This document shows positions 4,300 through 58,779 of a DNA stretch of 64,000 nucleotides, piece by piece (positions within the stretch are counted from its first letter, which is position 1; each line of letters opens with the position of its first letter). The notes below the pieces were generated by a model. The model searched no databases. It saw nothing but the letters and a program-made list of their open reading frames with translations, and was not told the DNA's origin. Source of the DNA: Nonomuraea cypriaca (GTDB taxonomy: Bacteria > Actinomycetota > Actinomycetes > Streptosporangiales > Streptosporangiaceae); assembly GCF_015645445.1 (NCBI RefSeq), contig NZ_JADOGI010000013.1:1-64000 (forward strand). Reading direction: 5' to 3'. Both the position numbers and the translations under genes were made by a program.

Positions 4300-5591
4300 C
4301 CGTCGTCCCCACCACCCGGGTGCGCAAATACCACCTGACGCTCATCGCGGTCGCGCTCCTGATCGTGCTCATGTCGCTGGTACGCATCGTGTCCGGGCAG
4401 AACGACATCACCTCCTCCGGCACGTTCGCCGCCGCGCTGCTGCTGTCGGTGCCCATCGGCCTGGCCGGGCTCGGCGGCCTGTGGGCCGAGCGCGCGGGCG
4501 TGGTGAACATCGGCCTCGAAGGCATGATGGTCATGGGCACCTGGTTCGCCGGCTGGGCCGGATACCAGTGGGGTCCCGTGGCCGCGTTGCTCGCCGGTCT
4601 GGTCGGCGGGGCGCTCGGCGGCCTCATCCACGCCATCGCCACCGTGTCGTTCGGCGTCGACCACATCATCAGCGGTGTGGCCATCAACCTGCTCGGCCCC
4701 GGCGTCACGCGCTTCCTGTCGGAGGTGCTGTTCAAGGAGGGCAGCGCGGCGAACCAGGCGGGCGCCGGCATCACCACCTCGCCGCCGCTGTCGTCGGAGG
4801 CCCCCGAGATCAGCCTGCCGCTGCTCTCGTCCGGGCCCGACTGGCTGGGCAGCCTGGAACAGACCCACTGGTTCCTGCTCTCCGACCTGGCGGGCATCCT
4901 GCGCGGGCTCACGCACGACGTGAACATCCTGGTCGTCCTCGCCGTGCTGATGCTCCCGCTGACGTTCTTCGTGCTCTGGCGCACGGCCTTCGGCCTGCGG
5001 CTGCGCTCCGCGGGCGAGAACCCGTGGGCGGCCGAGTCGCTGGGCGTGAACGTCTACCTGATCAAGTACGTCGCCGTCGTCATCTCCGGCGCGTTCGCCG
5101 GCCTTGGCGGCGTGTTCCTGGTCTTCGTCTCCACGAAGTACGTCGAGGGTCAGACGGCGGGTCGTGGCTTCATCGGCCTGGCAGCCATGATCTTCGGAAA
5201 CTGGCGCCCCGGCGGTCTCGCGGCCGGCGCGTCGCTGTTCGGTTACGCCGACGGCCTGCAACTGCGCAGCTCGGGGGCGGTCACATCGTTCCTCCTGTTC
5301 GGCGCGGTGCTGTTGCTCTGCTATCTGGCGATCAGGATCCGCCGGATGCTGTCGTCCAGTCAGCCGGCCGAGATGGTGGTCAGGAGCACCAGGGATTACA
5401 CCCTGATGGCCGGCGCCACCGCGGGCATGGTCGTGCTGTTCTGGCTCTGGCTGACCGTCGAGCGGCTGCCGAACGAATTCGTCTTCATCACGCCACACGT
5501 GCTCACACTGCTCGTGCTCCTGGTGGCTTCGCAGCGGCTGCGGATGCCCAAGGCGGACGGCGTGAGCTATCGCCGGGGGGAAGAGCATTGA
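4296..5591 (+). CDS. Nucleoside ABC importer permease 2
   Basis: Second permease of the nucleoside importer, 431 aa, YufQ-like. It has many membrane helices and the sequence ERAGVVNIGLEGMMVMG near residue 70, a hallmark of this half of the heterodimer. Two extra hydrophobic segments follow the usual permease core at the C-terminus (after about residue 360), making it longer than many relatives. Its stop lies inside the first copy of the 15-base repeat at the start of the cytidine deaminase gene. Confidence 0.92.
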   Translation: MTVVPTTRVRKYHLTLIAVALLIVLMSLVRIVSGQNDITSSGTFAAALLLSVPIGLAGLGGLWAERAGVVNIGLEGMMVMGTWFAGWAGYQWGPVAALLAGLVGGALGGLIHAIATVSFGVDHIISGVAINLLGPGVTRFLSEVLFKEGSAANQAGAGITTSPPLSSEAPEISLPLLSSGPDWLGSLEQTHWFLLSDLAGILRGLTHDVNILVVLAVLMLPLTFFVLWRTAFGLRLRSAGENPWAAESLGVNVYLIKYVAVVISGAFAGLGGVFLVFVSTKYVEGQTAGRGFIGLAAMIFGNWRPGGLAAGASLFGYADGLQLRSSGAVTSFLLFGAVLLLCYLAIRIRRMLSSSQPAEMVVRSTRDYTLMAGATAGMVVLFWLWLTVERLPNEFVFITPHVLTLLVLLVASQRLRMPKADGVSYRRGEEH

Positions 5592-5655
5592 GTGACAGAG
5601 CATTGAGTGACAGAGCGTTGAGTGACAGAGCGTTGAGTGAGAGAGCATTGAGTAT
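5585..5655 (+). repeat. 15-base tandem repeat at the permease/cdd junction
   Basis: Close to five copies of a 15-base unit of the form AGAGCATTGAGTGAC run from the permease stop into the cytidine deaminase gene (A/G change at GCA/GCG; GAC becomes GAG in the fourth unit). Each copy contains TTGA, that is a TTG start overlapping a TGA in the upstream frame. In the deaminase frame the unit encodes RALSD, in phase. Replication slippage is the likely origin. Confidence 0.85.
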
Positions 5656-9961: not shown

Positions 9962-9978
9962 CCTGCGGGCACACCCAT

Positions 9979-10123
9979 CCTGCGGGGGCACCCATCCTGC
10001 GGGGGCACCCCGCATACCCCGAAACAGCGGAAGTTTTTTCTTTGGAAGACCTGCGGGGGCACCCATCCTGCGGGGGCACCCCGCATACCCCGAAACAGCG
10101 GAAGAATTTTTTGTCTTGGAAGA
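9979..10123 (+). repeat. Two tandem 71-74 base repeats with hairpins and T-runs
   Basis: Copies at 9979-10049 and 10050-10123 differ mainly in the T-rich part (T6 versus AAT6G). Each holds two shorter repeats of the form TCCTGCGGGGGCACCC, a hairpin TGCGGGG-GCA-CCCCGCA and then a T-run. A third partial unit starts at 10124. The hairpin plus T-run suggests a duplicated terminator for the lipoprotein gene. The two copies are adjacent with no spacers, so this is not a CRISPR array. Confidence 0.8.
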
Positions 10124-10165
10124 CCTGCGGGGAACCGCAGGTCTGGTAGCCACTAGCGTGGCTAC
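10122..10165 (+). promoter_or_regulatory. Two adjacent hairpins before the cupin gene
   Basis: GACCTGCGG-GGAA-CCGCAGGTC (10122-10143) and GTAGCCAC-TAGC-GTGGCTAC (10146-10165) are perfect stems of nine and eight pairs, each with a four-base loop, ending one or two bases before the likely cupin start. They could be a terminator, an attenuator or an operator; the sequence alone does not decide. Confidence 0.5.
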
Positions 10166-24132: not shown

Positions 24133-24160
24133 TCAGAGGCCGAGGTGGGTGGTCAGGTCG
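24089..24160. repeat. Interspersed repeat, copy B
   Basis: Partner of the repeat at 22731-22802, same orientation. This copy spans the stop codon and last nine codons of the phosphohexomutase gene, so part of the likeness could come from shared coding origin. The conserved core is GGCCGT.CTTGGGG.CCAGGAGTGC. Confidence 0.45.
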
Positions 24161-25881
24161 GCCTTCAGGGCTTCGAGGTCCGCCGTGGCATGTGTACGGG
24201 CGTGCGCCACCTCGTCGGCCACCGGTACGACGACCTCCAGGTAGCACTTCAGCTTGGGCTCCGTGCCCGATGGGCGTACGACCACGCGGGCGTCGCCGGA
24301 CAGGCGGTAGCGCAGGCCGTCCGTCGGCGGGAGGCCCCCGTCGCCCTTCGCCAGGTCGTCCGCCCGGACCACCTGCCGTCCTCCGAGCGTCGCGGGAGGG
24401 GCGGCGCGCAGCCGGGACATGGTGGAGGTGATCAGGGACAGGTCGGCCACCCGGAAGGAGAGCTGGGAGGTGGCGTGCAGGCCGTAGCGCCTTGCCTGGT
24501 CGTCCAGCAGGTCCAGCAGGGCGCGGCCGGAGCGTTTGGCCGTGGCCGCGATGGCGGCGATCGTCAGGGCCGCGCCGATCCCGTCCTTGTCGCGGACCGG
24601 GAGGCCGGCGTCCGAGCCGACGCTGTAGCCGATCGCCTCCTCGTAGCCGAACACCAGGCCGGGGCCCGCTTTGATGATCCACTTGAAGCCGGTCAGGGTC
24701 TCGCCATACCGTACGCCGTGTGCTTTGGCGATCTTGCCGAGCAGGGTCGAGGAGACGATGGTGGTGGCCACCATGCGGTCCCCGGTCGTGTGGGTGATCA
24801 CATGCTCGGCCAGCAGGCCCCCGAGTTCGTCCCCGGTGAGCATGCGGCAGGAGCCGTCCGGCAGGGGCACCCCCACCGCGCACCGGTCGGCGTCCGGGTC
24901 GTTGGCGAGGACCAGGTCGGCGTTCAGTTTGGCGGCCAGGGCGATGGCCAGGTCCATCGCGCCCGGTTCCTCCGGGTTGGGGAAGGACACCGTGGGGAAG
25001 TCGGGGTCGGGGTCGCGTTGCTCGGCGACGGCGACCGGCGGCTCGAAGCCGGCCGCCTGGAAGGCTCTGGTCAGTGTGTCCGCGCCCACCCCGTGCAGGG
25101 GTGTGTACGCGATCCGGAGGTCACGGGCCTCGCTCAGGGGAAGGGACGTCACGGCGCTGAGGTAGGCGTCAACGATCTCCTCGCCCAACACCACCGTGCC
25201 CGACGTGCCCGCTGAGGAGGCGTCGGTGGTGCCCGGCGCGCTCACTGAGGTGCCCGAGGTGCCGGAGGTGCCGGAGGGGCCGAAGGTGCCGGAGGGGCCG
25301 GAGGGGCCGGAGGGGCCGAGGGGGAGTTGGTCGACGGGGCCGACTGCGGCGATGGCGGTCGAGATCTCCGTGTCGATCGGGGGCACGATCTGGGAGCCGT
25401 CGCCCCAGTAGACCTTGTAGCCGTTGTCGCGCGGCGGGTTGTGGCTGGCGGTCACGGTCACGCCGGCGTCCGCGCCCAGGTGGCGTACGGCGAAGGCCAG
25501 GACCGGGGTGGGCAGGGGGCGCGGCAGGAGGGAGGCGCGCAGCCCGGCGCCGGTCAGGACGGCGGCCGTGTCACGGGCGAACACGTCGGACTTGTGGCGG
25601 GCGTCGTAGCCGATGACCACGTGCTTGCCAGGACCGAGCACGCGGGCCAGCCCGGCGGCGGCGCGCATGACGGTGACGCGGTTCATCCGGTTGGGGCCCG
25701 CGCCCAGCTCACCGCGCAGCCCGGCCGTGCCGAACTCCAGCCGGGCGCCGAACCGGTCGCGCAGCGCCGCGAGGTCCTCGCGTTCGAGCAGGGCGGACAG
25801 CTCGGCGCGGGTGCCGGGGTCGGGGTCCTGGGCCAGCCACCGCCGGGCCTCGTCCAAGAGAGCCGGGTCCGAGAGAGTCAC
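24133..25881 (-). CDS. Phosphoglucomutase/phosphomannomutase
   Basis: Alpha-D-phosphohexomutase of 582 aa; moves phosphate between C1 and C6 of a hexose or the C1 and C5 of pentose phosphates. The active serine loop TASHNPPRDNGYKVYW, metal loop DPDADRC and phosphate-binding RPSGTEPKLKCYLE are all present. Residues about 187-228 are an insertion of GPSG and SGTSGT repeats not expected in the family. GTG 25881 overlaps the stop of a chimeric mini-ORF. Next to purine nucleoside phosphorylase, action on ribose or deoxyribose 1-phosphate is plausible. Confidence 0.93.
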   Translation of the reverse strand: MTLSDPALLDEARRWLAQDPDPGTRAELSALLEREDLAALRDRFGARLEFGTAGLRGELGAGPNRMNRVTVMRAAAGLARVLGPGKHVVIGYDARHKSDVFARDTAAVLTGAGLRASLLPRPLPTPVLAFAVRHLGADAGVTVTASHNPPRDNGYKVYWGDGSQIVPPIDTEISTAIAAVGPVDQLPLGPSGPSGPSGTFGPSGTSGTSGTSVSAPGTTDASSAGTSGTVVLGEEIVDAYLSAVTSLPLSEARDLRIAYTPLHGVGADTLTRAFQAAGFEPPVAVAEQRDPDPDFPTVSFPNPEEPGAMDLAIALAAKLNADLVLANDPDADRCAVGVPLPDGSCRMLTGDELGGLLAEHVITHTTGDRMVATTIVSSTLLGKIAKAHGVRYGETLTGFKWIIKAGPGLVFGYEEAIGYSVGSDAGLPVRDKDGIGAALTIAAIAATAKRSGRALLDLLDDQARRYGLHATSQLSFRVADLSLITSTMSRLRAAPPATLGGRQVVRADDLAKGDGGLPPTDGLRYRLSGDARVVVRPSGTEPKLKCYLEVVVPVADEVAHARTHATADLEALKADLTTHLGL

Positions 25882-25973
25882 AGCCGCTCGACCGCCTTGT
25901 CCAAGAGGTTCAGAGCCGGGTCGGAGAGGTTCACAGCCGCTCGATCATCTTGTCCAGGGTCCGAGAGAGTCAC
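25878..25973 (-). repeat. Duplicated gene junction with 31-aa mini-ORF
   Basis: Three diverged copies of the phosphorylase-end/mutase-start boundary lie in a row (unit of roughly 46-50 bases: GTCGA-CGGCTGTGA-CTCTC-GACC). The segment between the true stop of the phosphorylase and the true start of the mutase is one open frame of 31 codons. It begins TLSDPG like the mutase and ends DKAVERL like the phosphorylase (KVVDRL). Both ends overlap neighbours as GTGA. Translation is possible through coupling; a function is unlikely. Confidence 0.8.
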
Positions 25974-26773
25974 AGCCGGTCGACCACCTTGGCGAGAAGT
26001 TCGCCCATGCGGGTGGCGGTGGCGCGGCCGACCTCCAGGACCTCCTCGTGGTTGAGCGGCTCACCGGACAGGCCCGCGCCCGGGTTGGTGACGAGGGAGA
26101 CGCCGAGCACGTCGAGGCCCGCCTCGCGGGCGGCGATCGCCTCCAGCACGGTGGACATGCCGATCATGTCGCCGCCGAGCGTGCGCAGCATCCGGATCTC
26201 GGCCGGCGTCTCGTACGTCGGCCCGCGGAAGGCCACGTAGACCCCCTCGGCCAGGGCCGGGTCGATCTCGCGTACCAGGTCGCGCAGGCGGCGTGAGTAG
26301 ACCTCGGTGAGGTCGATGAACGTGGTCCCGGTGATCGGGTTGGCGCCGGTCAGGTTGATGTGGTCGCTGATCAGGACCGGATCGCCGACGTTCTGCGTCT
26401 CGGGGCGCAGGCCGCCGGCCGCGTTGGTCAGCACGACCGTGCGGACCCCGGCCGCGGCCGCCGTGCGTACGCCGTGCACGACCGCGTCCACCCCGAGCCC
26501 TTCGTACAGATGCGTACGCCCGAGGAACACCACCGCGTGCCGCCCGCCCGGCGTGCGGACGACGCGGATCCTGCCGCCGTGCCCGGCCACGGCGGGGGCG
26601 CGGAAGCCGGGCAGGTCGGTGAACGGGATCTCGGTCACCGTCTCGCCGATCGCGTCGGCGGCGGGCACCCACCCCGACCCCATGACGAGCGCGACGTCGA
26701 AGGTGTCGAGACCGGCGGCGGTCTTGAGCGCCGCCGCCGCCTCGGAGGCCAGGGTGTAAGGGTCGTTGCTCAC
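25970..26773 (-). CDS. Purine nucleoside phosphorylase
   Basis: Type I trimeric purine nucleoside phosphorylase of 267 aa; splits inosine, guanosine and deoxy forms with phosphate. It shows VMGSGWVPAAD at the phosphate site, GRTHLYEG, LTNAAGGL, the base-site Glu in GPTYETPAEIRML and VTNPGAGLSGEPLNH. GTG 26773 follows the peptidase stop closely. With adenosine deaminase upstream in the window it forms a purine salvage route. Confidence 0.95.
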   Translation of the reverse strand: MSNDPYTLASEAAAALKTAAGLDTFDVALVMGSGWVPAADAIGETVTEIPFTDLPGFRAPAVAGHGGRIRVVRTPGGRHAVVFLGRTHLYEGLGVDAVVHGVRTAAAAGVRTVVLTNAAGGLRPETQNVGDPVLISDHINLTGANPITGTTFIDLTEVYSRRLRDLVREIDPALAEGVYVAFRGPTYETPAEIRMLRTLGGDMIGMSTVLEAIAAREAGLDVLGVSLVTNPGAGLSGEPLNHEEVLEVGRATATRMGELLAKVVDRL

Positions 26774-57079: not shown

Positions 57080-58025
57080 CTACGGCACGTACGTCTACGC
57101 GGTCGCCAGGGACCACGTCCCCGGGTGCCCGGCCGGCGTGGCGGAGACGGACGTACGCACGATCAGCCGGGCCGGCCTCGTCGCGTACGTGAGCAGCGTG
57201 CCACTGACGGAGTTCGGCGCGGTGCCGCTGCGCCGCTCGCTGGAGGACCTTGACTGGCTGGCGGGGACGGCCCGCGCGCACCACCGCGTCGTGGAGGCCG
57301 TGGCGGCGGCGACCCCGACGGCCCCGGTCCGGCTCGTCACGGTCTACGACGGCGACGACCAGGTGCGCGCCCTGCTGGACCGGCGCAACGACGACTTCCT
57401 CGCGGTGCTCTCCCACGTCACGGGGCGCAAGGAATGGGGCGTCAAGGCATACGCGGACCCGGCCGCGGCCCCACTCCCACTGAACGGCGACGGCCCCACC
57501 ACCGACCGCCGCGCCGGCCCCGCCACGACTCTTGCCCCCGGCCCCGCCCGCGCCGGGCGGACCGACCTTGGCGGTGAGCGCGCCGGGCGGCCGGATGGCG
57601 GTGGTGAGCTCGTCGGGCGGACCGACCGCAGTGGAGACCGCGCCGGGCGGGCCGACCGCGGTGGCGGTGGTGAGCTTGTAGGAGGGCCGGAGCGTGGTGG
57701 GGGCATGCCGGGGACGGCGTACCTCAAGCGCCGGCAGGCGAGTCTGCGGGGCAGGGAGCAGGCGCGGCGGCTGGCCGTCACGCGGGCCGAGGAGATCCAC
57801 GCCGCGCTGTCCTCCCTCGCCGCCGCCAGCCGCCGCCACCGCGCCCAGGACCCGCAGTTGTCCGGCCGCGACGACTGGATGCTGCTGAACGGCGCCTACC
57901 TCGTGGACGAGGGCAGGGACGAGGAGTTCGCCGCGATGGCGAGCACCCTCGGCGGGGACGGCGTCGACCTGCGGCTCACCGGTCCCTGGGCGCCGTACTC
58001 GTTCACGATCCTGGAGACGTCTTGA
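57072..58025 (+). CDS. gvpL: Gas vesicle protein GvpL with low-complexity insert
   Basis: GvpF/L-family protein of 317 aa. The start YGTYVYAVARDHVPG, the middle DQVRALLDRRNDDFLAVLSHVTGRKEWGVKAYAD and the end LTGPWAPYSFTIL are conserved. Residues about 137-212 are an insert of Gly/Arg/Asp-rich repeats (GERAGR, GELVGR, DRAGRADRGG) at a variable loop. The start overlaps the gvpJ end by eight bases. Confidence 0.9.
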   Translation: MSDYGTYVYAVARDHVPGCPAGVAETDVRTISRAGLVAYVSSVPLTEFGAVPLRRSLEDLDWLAGTARAHHRVVEAVAAATPTAPVRLVTVYDGDDQVRALLDRRNDDFLAVLSHVTGRKEWGVKAYADPAAAPLPLNGDGPTTDRRAGPATTLAPGPARAGRTDLGGERAGRPDGGGELVGRTDRSGDRAGRADRGGGGELVGGPERGGGMPGTAYLKRRQASLRGREQARRLAVTRAEEIHAALSSLAAASRRHRAQDPQLSGRDDWMLLNGAYLVDEGRDEEFAAMASTLGGDGVDLRLTGPWAPYSFTILETS

Positions 58026-58291
58026 GACGGGACGTGGTGGCCCAGGAACGGTTGCCAGCCGAACGCGTAGCTCTCGTCGACCTGCTGGACCGGCTGCTGA
58101 CAGGCGGCGTCGTCCTGACCGGCGACCTCGTCCTGTCGATCGCGGACGTGGACCTCGTACGCATCTCGCTGCGCGCCCTCATCGCGTCGGTGGACGAACT
58201 CTCGGCGGACGGGCTGTCACTGGACGGACTTTCGCTGGACGGGCTGTCGGCGGACGGGCTCTCGCTGGACGGGCTGGAGGGCACCACGTGA
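58022..58291 (+). CDS. gvpS: Gas vesicle protein GvpS, GvpA-related
   Basis: GvpA-family protein of 89 aa: VALVDLLDRLLTGGVVLTGDLVLSIADVDLVRISLRALIASVD-like core, then a tail of DGLSL / DGLSA units from a 15-base tandem repeat (58198-58279). The TTG start overlaps the gvpL stop. Order between gvpL and gvpK matches streptomycete gvpS. Confidence 0.85.
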   Translation: MRRDVVAQERLPAERVALVDLLDRLLTGGVVLTGDLVLSIADVDLVRISLRALIASVDELSADGLSLDGLSLDGLSADGLSLDGLEGTT

Positions 58292-58779
58292 CCCCGAACC
58301 CACTCGACCCCTTGAACCCGCAAGACCAGCCAGATCCGCTGACCCCGCCTGGACGGCCCGATCCGCTGGACTCCCCGGACCCACGGGAGCGGCCGGATCC
58401 TTTGGGCCCGCCGGACCCACGGGAACGGCCGGATCCTTTGGGCCGGCCGGACCCAGGGGAGCAGCCGGATCCGCTGGGTCCGCCTGGACGGGCGGAGTCG
58501 CCGCGATGGCGGATCGCGGCCGACGCGGAGACCGTCGAGCGCGACCTGACCCGCCTCGTGCTGACCCTGGTCGAGCTCCTCCGCCAGCTCGTCGAGCGCC
58601 AGTCCGTACGCCGCATGGACCAGGGCGATCTGTCCGACGAGCAGATCGAGACGCTCGGCGTGACCCTGATGCGGCTGGAGGAGGCGATGGACGACCTGTG
58701 CGACCGCTTCGGCCTGACCCCCGCCGACCTCAACCTCGACCTGGGCCCGCTCGGAACGCTCCTCCCCACCGACCGGTAG
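58288..58779 (+). CDS. gvpK: Gas vesicle protein GvpK with proline-rich N-terminus
   Basis: GvpK-family protein of 163 aa. The conserved helical domain starts at about residue 70 (RWRIAADAETVERDLTRLVLTLVELLRQLVE) and ends LNLDLGPLGTLLP. The first 68 residues are proline-rich, with three 12-residue units like DPRERPDPLGPP encoded by 36-base tandem repeats. GTG overlaps the gvpS stop. Last gene of the cluster. Confidence 0.92.
   Translation: MTPNPLDPLNPQDQPDPLTPPGRPDPLDSPDPRERPDPLGPPDPRERPDPLGRPDPGEQPDPLGPPGRAESPRWRIAADAETVERDLTRLVLTLVELLRQLVERQSVRRMDQGDLSDEQIETLGVTLMRLEEAMDDLCDRFGLTPADLNLDLGPLGTLLPTDR

Follow-up and report, generated by a model that had tools for sequence, protein, structure and literature searches.

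A duplicated stop-start junction in Nonomuraea cypriaca with a 31-codon open reading frame as its putative translational bridge

A 64,000-nucleotide stretch of Nonomuraea cypriaca DNA (contig NZ_JADOGI010000013.1, positions 1 to 64,000; here called the window) raises the question of how a 31-codon open reading frame (ORF) came to lie between two genes, overlapping each of them by the four nucleotides GTGA, and whether it is a gene in its own right. The two genes, both on the minus strand, encode a purine nucleoside phosphorylase (PNP) and, downstream of it, a member of the phosphohexomutase superfamily (here, the mutase). We consider it probable that, in one lineage of Nonomuraea, a putatively translationally coupled stop-start junction underwent ordinary local duplication in tandem, in no fewer than two steps. 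What was kept would be the passage from PNP to the mutase, with the peptide encoded by the small ORF (the mini-ORF) as a by-product. The locus is composed as follows.

25970..26773, minus strand: PNP gene, with its TGA stop at 25972-25970 (NCBIfam TIGR01698 and PRK08202 above cut-off; Pfam PNP_UDP_1)
25970..25973, minus strand: overlap 1, GTGA, PNP stop and mini-ORF start
25878..25973, minus strand: mini-ORF, a chimeric relay ORF of 31 codons with a GTG start and a GTGA overlap with each neighbor
25931..25934, minus strand: middle GTGA, 39 nt downstream of overlap 1, through which the mini-ORF reads in frame
25878..25881, minus strand: overlap 2, GTGA, mini-ORF stop and mutase start
24133..25881, minus strand: mutase gene, with a GTG start at 25881 (Pfam PGM_PMM I-IV; under the cut-off of every NCBIfam model matched)

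The boundaries of the mini-ORF, its 31 codons, and its GTGA overlap on both sides agree with an earlier reading made from the letters alone (the sequence-only reading), which had described the ORF as beginning like the mutase and ending like PNP. The product consists of 31 amino acids, MTLSDPGQDDRAAVNLSDPALNLLDKAVERL. That description holds for codons 1 to 6 and 14 to 21, which resemble the mutase start (codon 14 being the GTG of the middle GTGA), and for the last nine codons, which resemble the PNP tail (LLDKAVERL versus LLAKVVDRL). It does not hold for codons 7 to 13, which are a copy of the PNP tail read out of frame.

The junction between the two genes was found to be present in three copies.

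25951..25995, minus strand: junction copy J1, the PNP end and the first stop-start overlap, 82% (37/45) identical to J3
25912..25956, minus strand: junction copy J2, the middle copy, with its GTG in frame inside the mini-ORF, 87% (39/45) identical to J3
25859..25903, minus strand: junction copy J3, the reference copy, with the mini-ORF stop and the mutase start

J1 and J2 share 33 of 45 positions, so that the three copies are 73 to 87% identical in pairwise comparison. Compared with itself, the 221-nt region gave a top off-diagonal score of 29, whereas none of 300 dinucleotide shuffles exceeded 14; a self-match of at least 29 occurs in 8 of the 580 tiles of the window, the tile of the locus itself included, and is uncommon here, not unique. 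The proposal that the junction had been tandemly copied is thus borne out, the three segments being homologous (33 to 39 identities in 45) and not, as the sequence-only reading had allowed, potentially unrelated. Its single extra unit is too few, since there are three junction copies and the GTG-to-GTG spacings of 39 and 53 nt correspond to two extra units. When a 171-base query was compared with the whole genome, one match at E ≤ 0.001 was obtained, and the junction unit was not found elsewhere in that genome, the best match off the locus having an E value of 0.04 over 21 nt. The copies are adjacent, direct, built from flanking sequence, and confined to a single locus, as in a local tandem duplication.

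The mutase half is identical in J1 and J3, and a variant of the PNP half is common to J2 and J3. We infer from this distribution that a first duplication produced J1 and J3, and that a second copy, J2, was added later and decayed. The mutase start holds a shorter repeat as well.

25898..25939, minus strand: nested tandem repeat of about 21 nt (segments 25939-25919 and 25918-25898), with 17 of 21 positions identical between the adjacent segments (best of 500 shuffles, 15)

This nested repeat suggests that the mutase start itself may have been enlarged earlier by a small duplication.

How could a frame spanning such copies end exactly where the next gene begins? By arithmetic alone, duplication of an NTGA junction gives a relay ORF when the added length is 2 mod 3, an extension of the downstream gene when it is 0 mod 3, and a broken link when it is 1 mod 3. 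At the PNP-mutase junction, the net insertion of 92 nt belongs to the first class (2 mod 3), and the frame opened at the first GTGA therefore ends exactly at the last. Shine-Dalgarno (SD)-like elements were then compared between the copies, with pairing energies calculated against the 3' end of 16S rRNA.

25984..25990, minus strand: SD-like AAGGTGG, within PNP codons and ten nucleotides before the GTG of J1 (anti-SD duplex of -8.7 kcal/mol for the upstream stretch)
25945..25951, minus strand: decayed SD-like copy AAGATGA at J2 (-3.8 kcal/mol, near the background median)
25892..25898, minus strand: SD-like copy AAGGCGG before the mutase start, at J3 (-8.8 kcal/mol)

The background median, -4.4 kcal/mol, was obtained from 398 sampled GTG sites. 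The SD-like element is kept at both starts that a relay would use and is lost at the middle site, which a relay would not need, this being a single case that carries no statistic. The combination of a 4-nt overlap with an SD-like element in the upstream gene is as expected of a translationally coupled pair. The sequence-only reading had called the coupling built in; the overlaps and the copied SD-like stretch are indeed present, and the frame arithmetic accounts for the built-in arrangement, the coupling itself being predicted.

Each copied unit would thus carry a whole re-initiation site, namely the SD-like stretch in the PNP tail codons together with the GTGA. A ribosome leaving PNP would re-initiate, translate the 31 codons, and re-initiate on the mutase, and what is retained would be this passage, whatever peptide is made on the way. 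Translation of the mini-ORF and a working coupling are thus predicted. In experiments with E. coli and Haloferax, coupling was almost lost when genes lay about 20 nt apart, and for two E. coli pairs it needed no more of the upstream gene than its final 15 nt (PMC10666635). An insertion of 92 nt would consequently be expected to uncouple the pair unless it were bridged. Most likely, the duplication was neutral and happened to keep its own translational bridge.

We then determined the state of the junction in relatives, taking it from all 54 genomes of the genus, the window species included. A PNP match was present in 334 of the 341 family genomes (E ≤ 1e-50), and the PNP stop was TGA in every one of the 54 genus genomes. 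A single NTGA overlap open into the mutase was the rule (51/54; GTG in 43, ATG in 5, TTG in 3), which gives the single-copy state expected of relatives in the sequence-only reading. The number of codons before a conserved Trp of the mutase ranged in these 51 genomes from 5 to 73 (median, 10), and the median energy of the SD-like element was -11.5 kcal/mol in 48 of them (3 fell under the identity cut). The exceptions were the window species, G155, and G179, and the three-copy array of the window species was found in no more than that 1 of the 54 genomes; correspondingly, no conserved mini-ORF peptide was found in these relatives. At 16 family loci outside the genus, the PNP stop lay in GTGA in 3 and in CTGA in 2, the others being TAG or TAA.

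The enlarged junctions of other species differ in structure. G168 has three PNP-tail copies; since each of the two spacings, 24 and 45 nt, is 0 mod 3, the mutase there merely gains an N-terminal extension. G155 and G179 have an ORF of 49 and 45 codons, respectively, before the mutase, with GTGA at either end, and the chain back to PNP runs through two CTGA steps upstream; CTG is only a rare start codon. Their two mini-ORFs differ by indels of -15, -1, +1, and +3 nt; the frame was lost and then restored, so that its end was kept and the peptide was not. A tree of PNP plus mutase was built from 53 rows of the genus and 3 from outside it, 56 in all (G186, with an incomplete locus, was left out). 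It places the window species within a 25-row clade (support, 99/97) whose other 24 rows have a single junction, its place inside this clade not being fixed by the tree, and far from a four-species clade made up of G168, G155, G179, and G141. When the four enlarged rows are labeled together, the tree needs three changes, which could be one gain and two losses. The enlargement in the window species is clearly separate from the events in G168, G155, and G179, and that of G168 may be separate from that of G155 and G179, mainly because the structures differ. Two further observations concern the mutase itself: in G157 (locus L042, 0 to 200 nt after the PNP stop), its N terminus contains a long Gly-Gly-Ala-Ala repeat, with 73 codons before the conserved Trp, and in the window species an 18-nt unit repeated four times (window positions 25247-25318) encodes a Gly-Pro-Ser-rich insertion.

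Is the PNP-mutase junction alone in its genome? We sampled 1.264 of the 11.5 Mb of that genome, made up of the window and 60 further stretches of 20 kb each, and 1.2 Mb of a second genome, G166, with genes called in both by a third-position GC rule, not by a gene finder. The own-genome sample had 2,264 coding ends, 173 direct NTGA overlaps, and 47 relays, and that of G166 had 2,187, 175, and 54, respectively. Shuffling was applied only to relays with a self-match of at least 13, and a repeat unmatched by 100 shuffles was present in 9 of the 47 own relays and in 3 of the 54 in G166. Across the upstream stop, a repeat was present in 5 of the 47 versus none of the 54 (p 0.02). These five are the window locus, L181, L172, L189, and L191. 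Only the window locus and L181 are trusted, because L172 offers another start for the gene that follows (at 2041, with a purine-rich stretch before it) and at L189 and L191 the downstream frame is doubtful. At L172 a 45-nt unit, repeated 2.7 times and containing many GTGA sites, lies over the end of a long gene (1899-2021, contig C1).

L181 (5159-5310, contig C10) is a near twin of the PNP-mutase case. A 33-codon ORF lies there between two TTGA sites at a modA-modB-like junction made of a 30-nt unit repeated 4.8 times, and its start resembles modB and its end modA. The modA-modB-like pair matches Pfam SBP_bac_11 and BPD_transp_1. Among 29 relative loci, this junction was located by motif in 8 (21 were not located), and each of the 8 has one copy of it; in 7 the modB ATG closely follows the modA stop, and in 1 the two overlap. 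An oppC-oppD-like junction (L214; 12550-12645, minus strand, contig C1) is composed of 14-nt units, several with GTGA, and its relay takes two steps, one of 6 and one of 23 codons. The first junction of this locus resembles the last (0/200 shuffles), and the upstream stop is not spanned by the strongest repeat. For the oppD-like gene of this locus, no match was found in the other 53 genus genomes at the strict cut of E ≤ 1e-100.

Tandem arrays with a period of at least 12 numbered 218 (172.5 per Mb) in the own-genome sample and 192 (160 per Mb) in that of G166. Those covering a gene stop numbered 35 in the own sample, where 27.1 were expected (standard deviation [SD of the count], 4.4; 1.8 standard deviations above), and 18 in G166, where 22.0 were expected (standard deviation, 4.4). 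No enrichment of arrays at gene stops was found in these 1.264 and 1.2 Mb, and since arrays lie over gene stops at about the chance rate, the junction case can be regarded as an ordinary duplication.

Several of these results weigh against a working relay. Neither J1 nor J3 reaches the median SD-like energy of the relatives, and 11.6% of the sampled GTG sites reach -8 kcal/mol. A junction duplication yields a clean relay about one-third of the time without selection, random DTGA pairs 60 to 240 nt apart were joined by a relay in 208 of 2,748 cases, and with the overlaps fixed the mini-ORF stayed open in about 80% of neutral simulations (15 substitutions). The contrast between the own genome and G166 fades to p 0.04 without the seed locus, to p 0.09 if a G166 repeat starting inside the stop codon (L167) is counted, and to p 0.21 with only the two trusted own cases. 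Because J3 has its own SD-like element, moreover, initiation on the mutase may be independent, with the mini-ORF idle and the upstream copies inert debris. We regard this last explanation as possible though rather doubtful: the energy at J3 and the likely neutral retention of the open frame favor it, and it has to face the NTGA overlap kept in 51 of 54 species though the codons before the conserved Trp vary so widely, as well as the overlap chain that persists in G155 and G179, but needs CTG starts at two steps. That the mini-ORF is a new functional small protein, one sense in which the newly born small ORF of the sequence-only reading could be taken, is very unlikely. It is open, it has an SD-like site (-8.7 kcal/mol), its start-stop placement is ideal, and a relay survived in only 28% of the simulations (15 substitutions) if the overlaps were free to mutate; against this stand the occurrence of the array in 1 of 54 species, the lack of any NCBIfam match for the mini-ORF, the indels that in G155 and G179 preserved the end frame and not the peptide, and the retention of the frame in most simulations with fixed overlaps. 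At that rate of neutral retention, selection inferred from the open frame is unsupported.

The geometry recalls mycobacterial interspersed repetitive units (MIRUs), whose small ORFs overlap both neighbors at DTGA sites. Several MIRUs of 77 and 53 bp lie between the genes senX3 and regX3 (PMC4213456), and the units of 39 and 53 nt are near these sizes. A mobile repeat of this kind inserted at a GTGA site is nevertheless highly improbable here, as no other copy was found in the own genome and the unit is pieced together out of the adjoining ends of PNP and the mutase. The other objection that the sequence-only reading had raised against itself, an artefact of assembly or sequencing, is scarcely credible. 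The genome is a draft of 587 contigs with 8.1% reported contamination, but the copies have diverged, which makes duplication by an assembler unlikely, and comparable arrays exist both at other loci of the same genome and, at this junction, in other species whose genomes were assembled independently. An attenuator or hairpin was also considered and dropped because the RNA folding of the junction is no better than that of shuffles (-65.6 versus a shuffle mean of -71.7 kcal/mol; of 200 shuffles, 187 matched or exceeded its stability).

Local duplication of the stop-start junction, our preferred explanation, can be compared with several known systems. Like MIRUs, the mini-ORF has a spacing of -4 nt to its neighbor, with GTGA at both ends, its coupling being read here from sequence; as is said of MIRUs, it also sits at an ancestral stop-start (DTGA) junction, one open NTGA overlap being the state in 51 of 54 genomes. 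Unlike that interspersed and apparently mobile family, the PNP-mutase unit is not dispersed in its own genome, and its source differs because it consists of the flanking genes and is found nowhere else there. The route that the sequence-only reading took to be undescribed is thus familiar in its geometry, which is already known from MIRUs, and origin by local duplication is the differing point. Junction duplication as a source of coupled mini-ORFs was not found in titles and abstracts among the matches listed, subscription journals being mostly outside their scope. An NTGA with an SD-like element in the upstream gene also resembles termination-reinitiation coupling at 4-nt overlaps (PMC10666635; PMC6728339); unlike in the usual case, overlaps follow one another here and are separated by a mini-ORF. 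As with short upstream ORFs that deliver ribosomes, for which passages of PMC12548453 serve as reference, the sole role of the mini-ORF may be to pass ribosomes on; unlike them, it arose inside an operon through junction copying. Of intergenic small ORFs in Enterobacteriaceae, about 13% of the co-directed candidates end, and about 13% begin, no more than 10 nt from a neighbor, and sections of that report discuss emergence from intergenic DNA (PMC11188072), whereas the mini-ORF came from duplicated gene ends. Gene-junction ORFs of rhabdoviruses, in parts of PMC4334499, are likewise cases in which a single junction expanded again and again within a lineage, at times by duplication; these are RNA viruses with separate transcription signals, and the duplications there are of genes or gene parts.

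The locus shows concretely how a duplication that parts two overlapping genes can also span the gap it creates, and it yields a simple frame rule, testable across genomes. Comparable junction enlargements have occurred more than once, and a plain local origin is suggested for small ORFs lying exactly between coupled genes, with no bearing on peptide function. Speculatively, and with considerable doubt on our part, tandem duplication of overlapping stop-start junctions could be a recurrent, self-preserving growth route for coupled operons: two-thirds of unit lengths keep coupling (by relay or extension), high-GC actinomycetes might always have pre-coupled mini-cistrons in reserve, and elements of the MIRU type possibly began as such local duplications and spread later.

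Other repeats occur in the window. At 5582-5653, a gene stop (TTGA at 5589) is covered by 4.8 repeats of a 15-nt unit (AGAGCATTGAGTGAC), and further strong nested tandem repeats are present at 9962-10132, 57549-57664, and 58187-58489.
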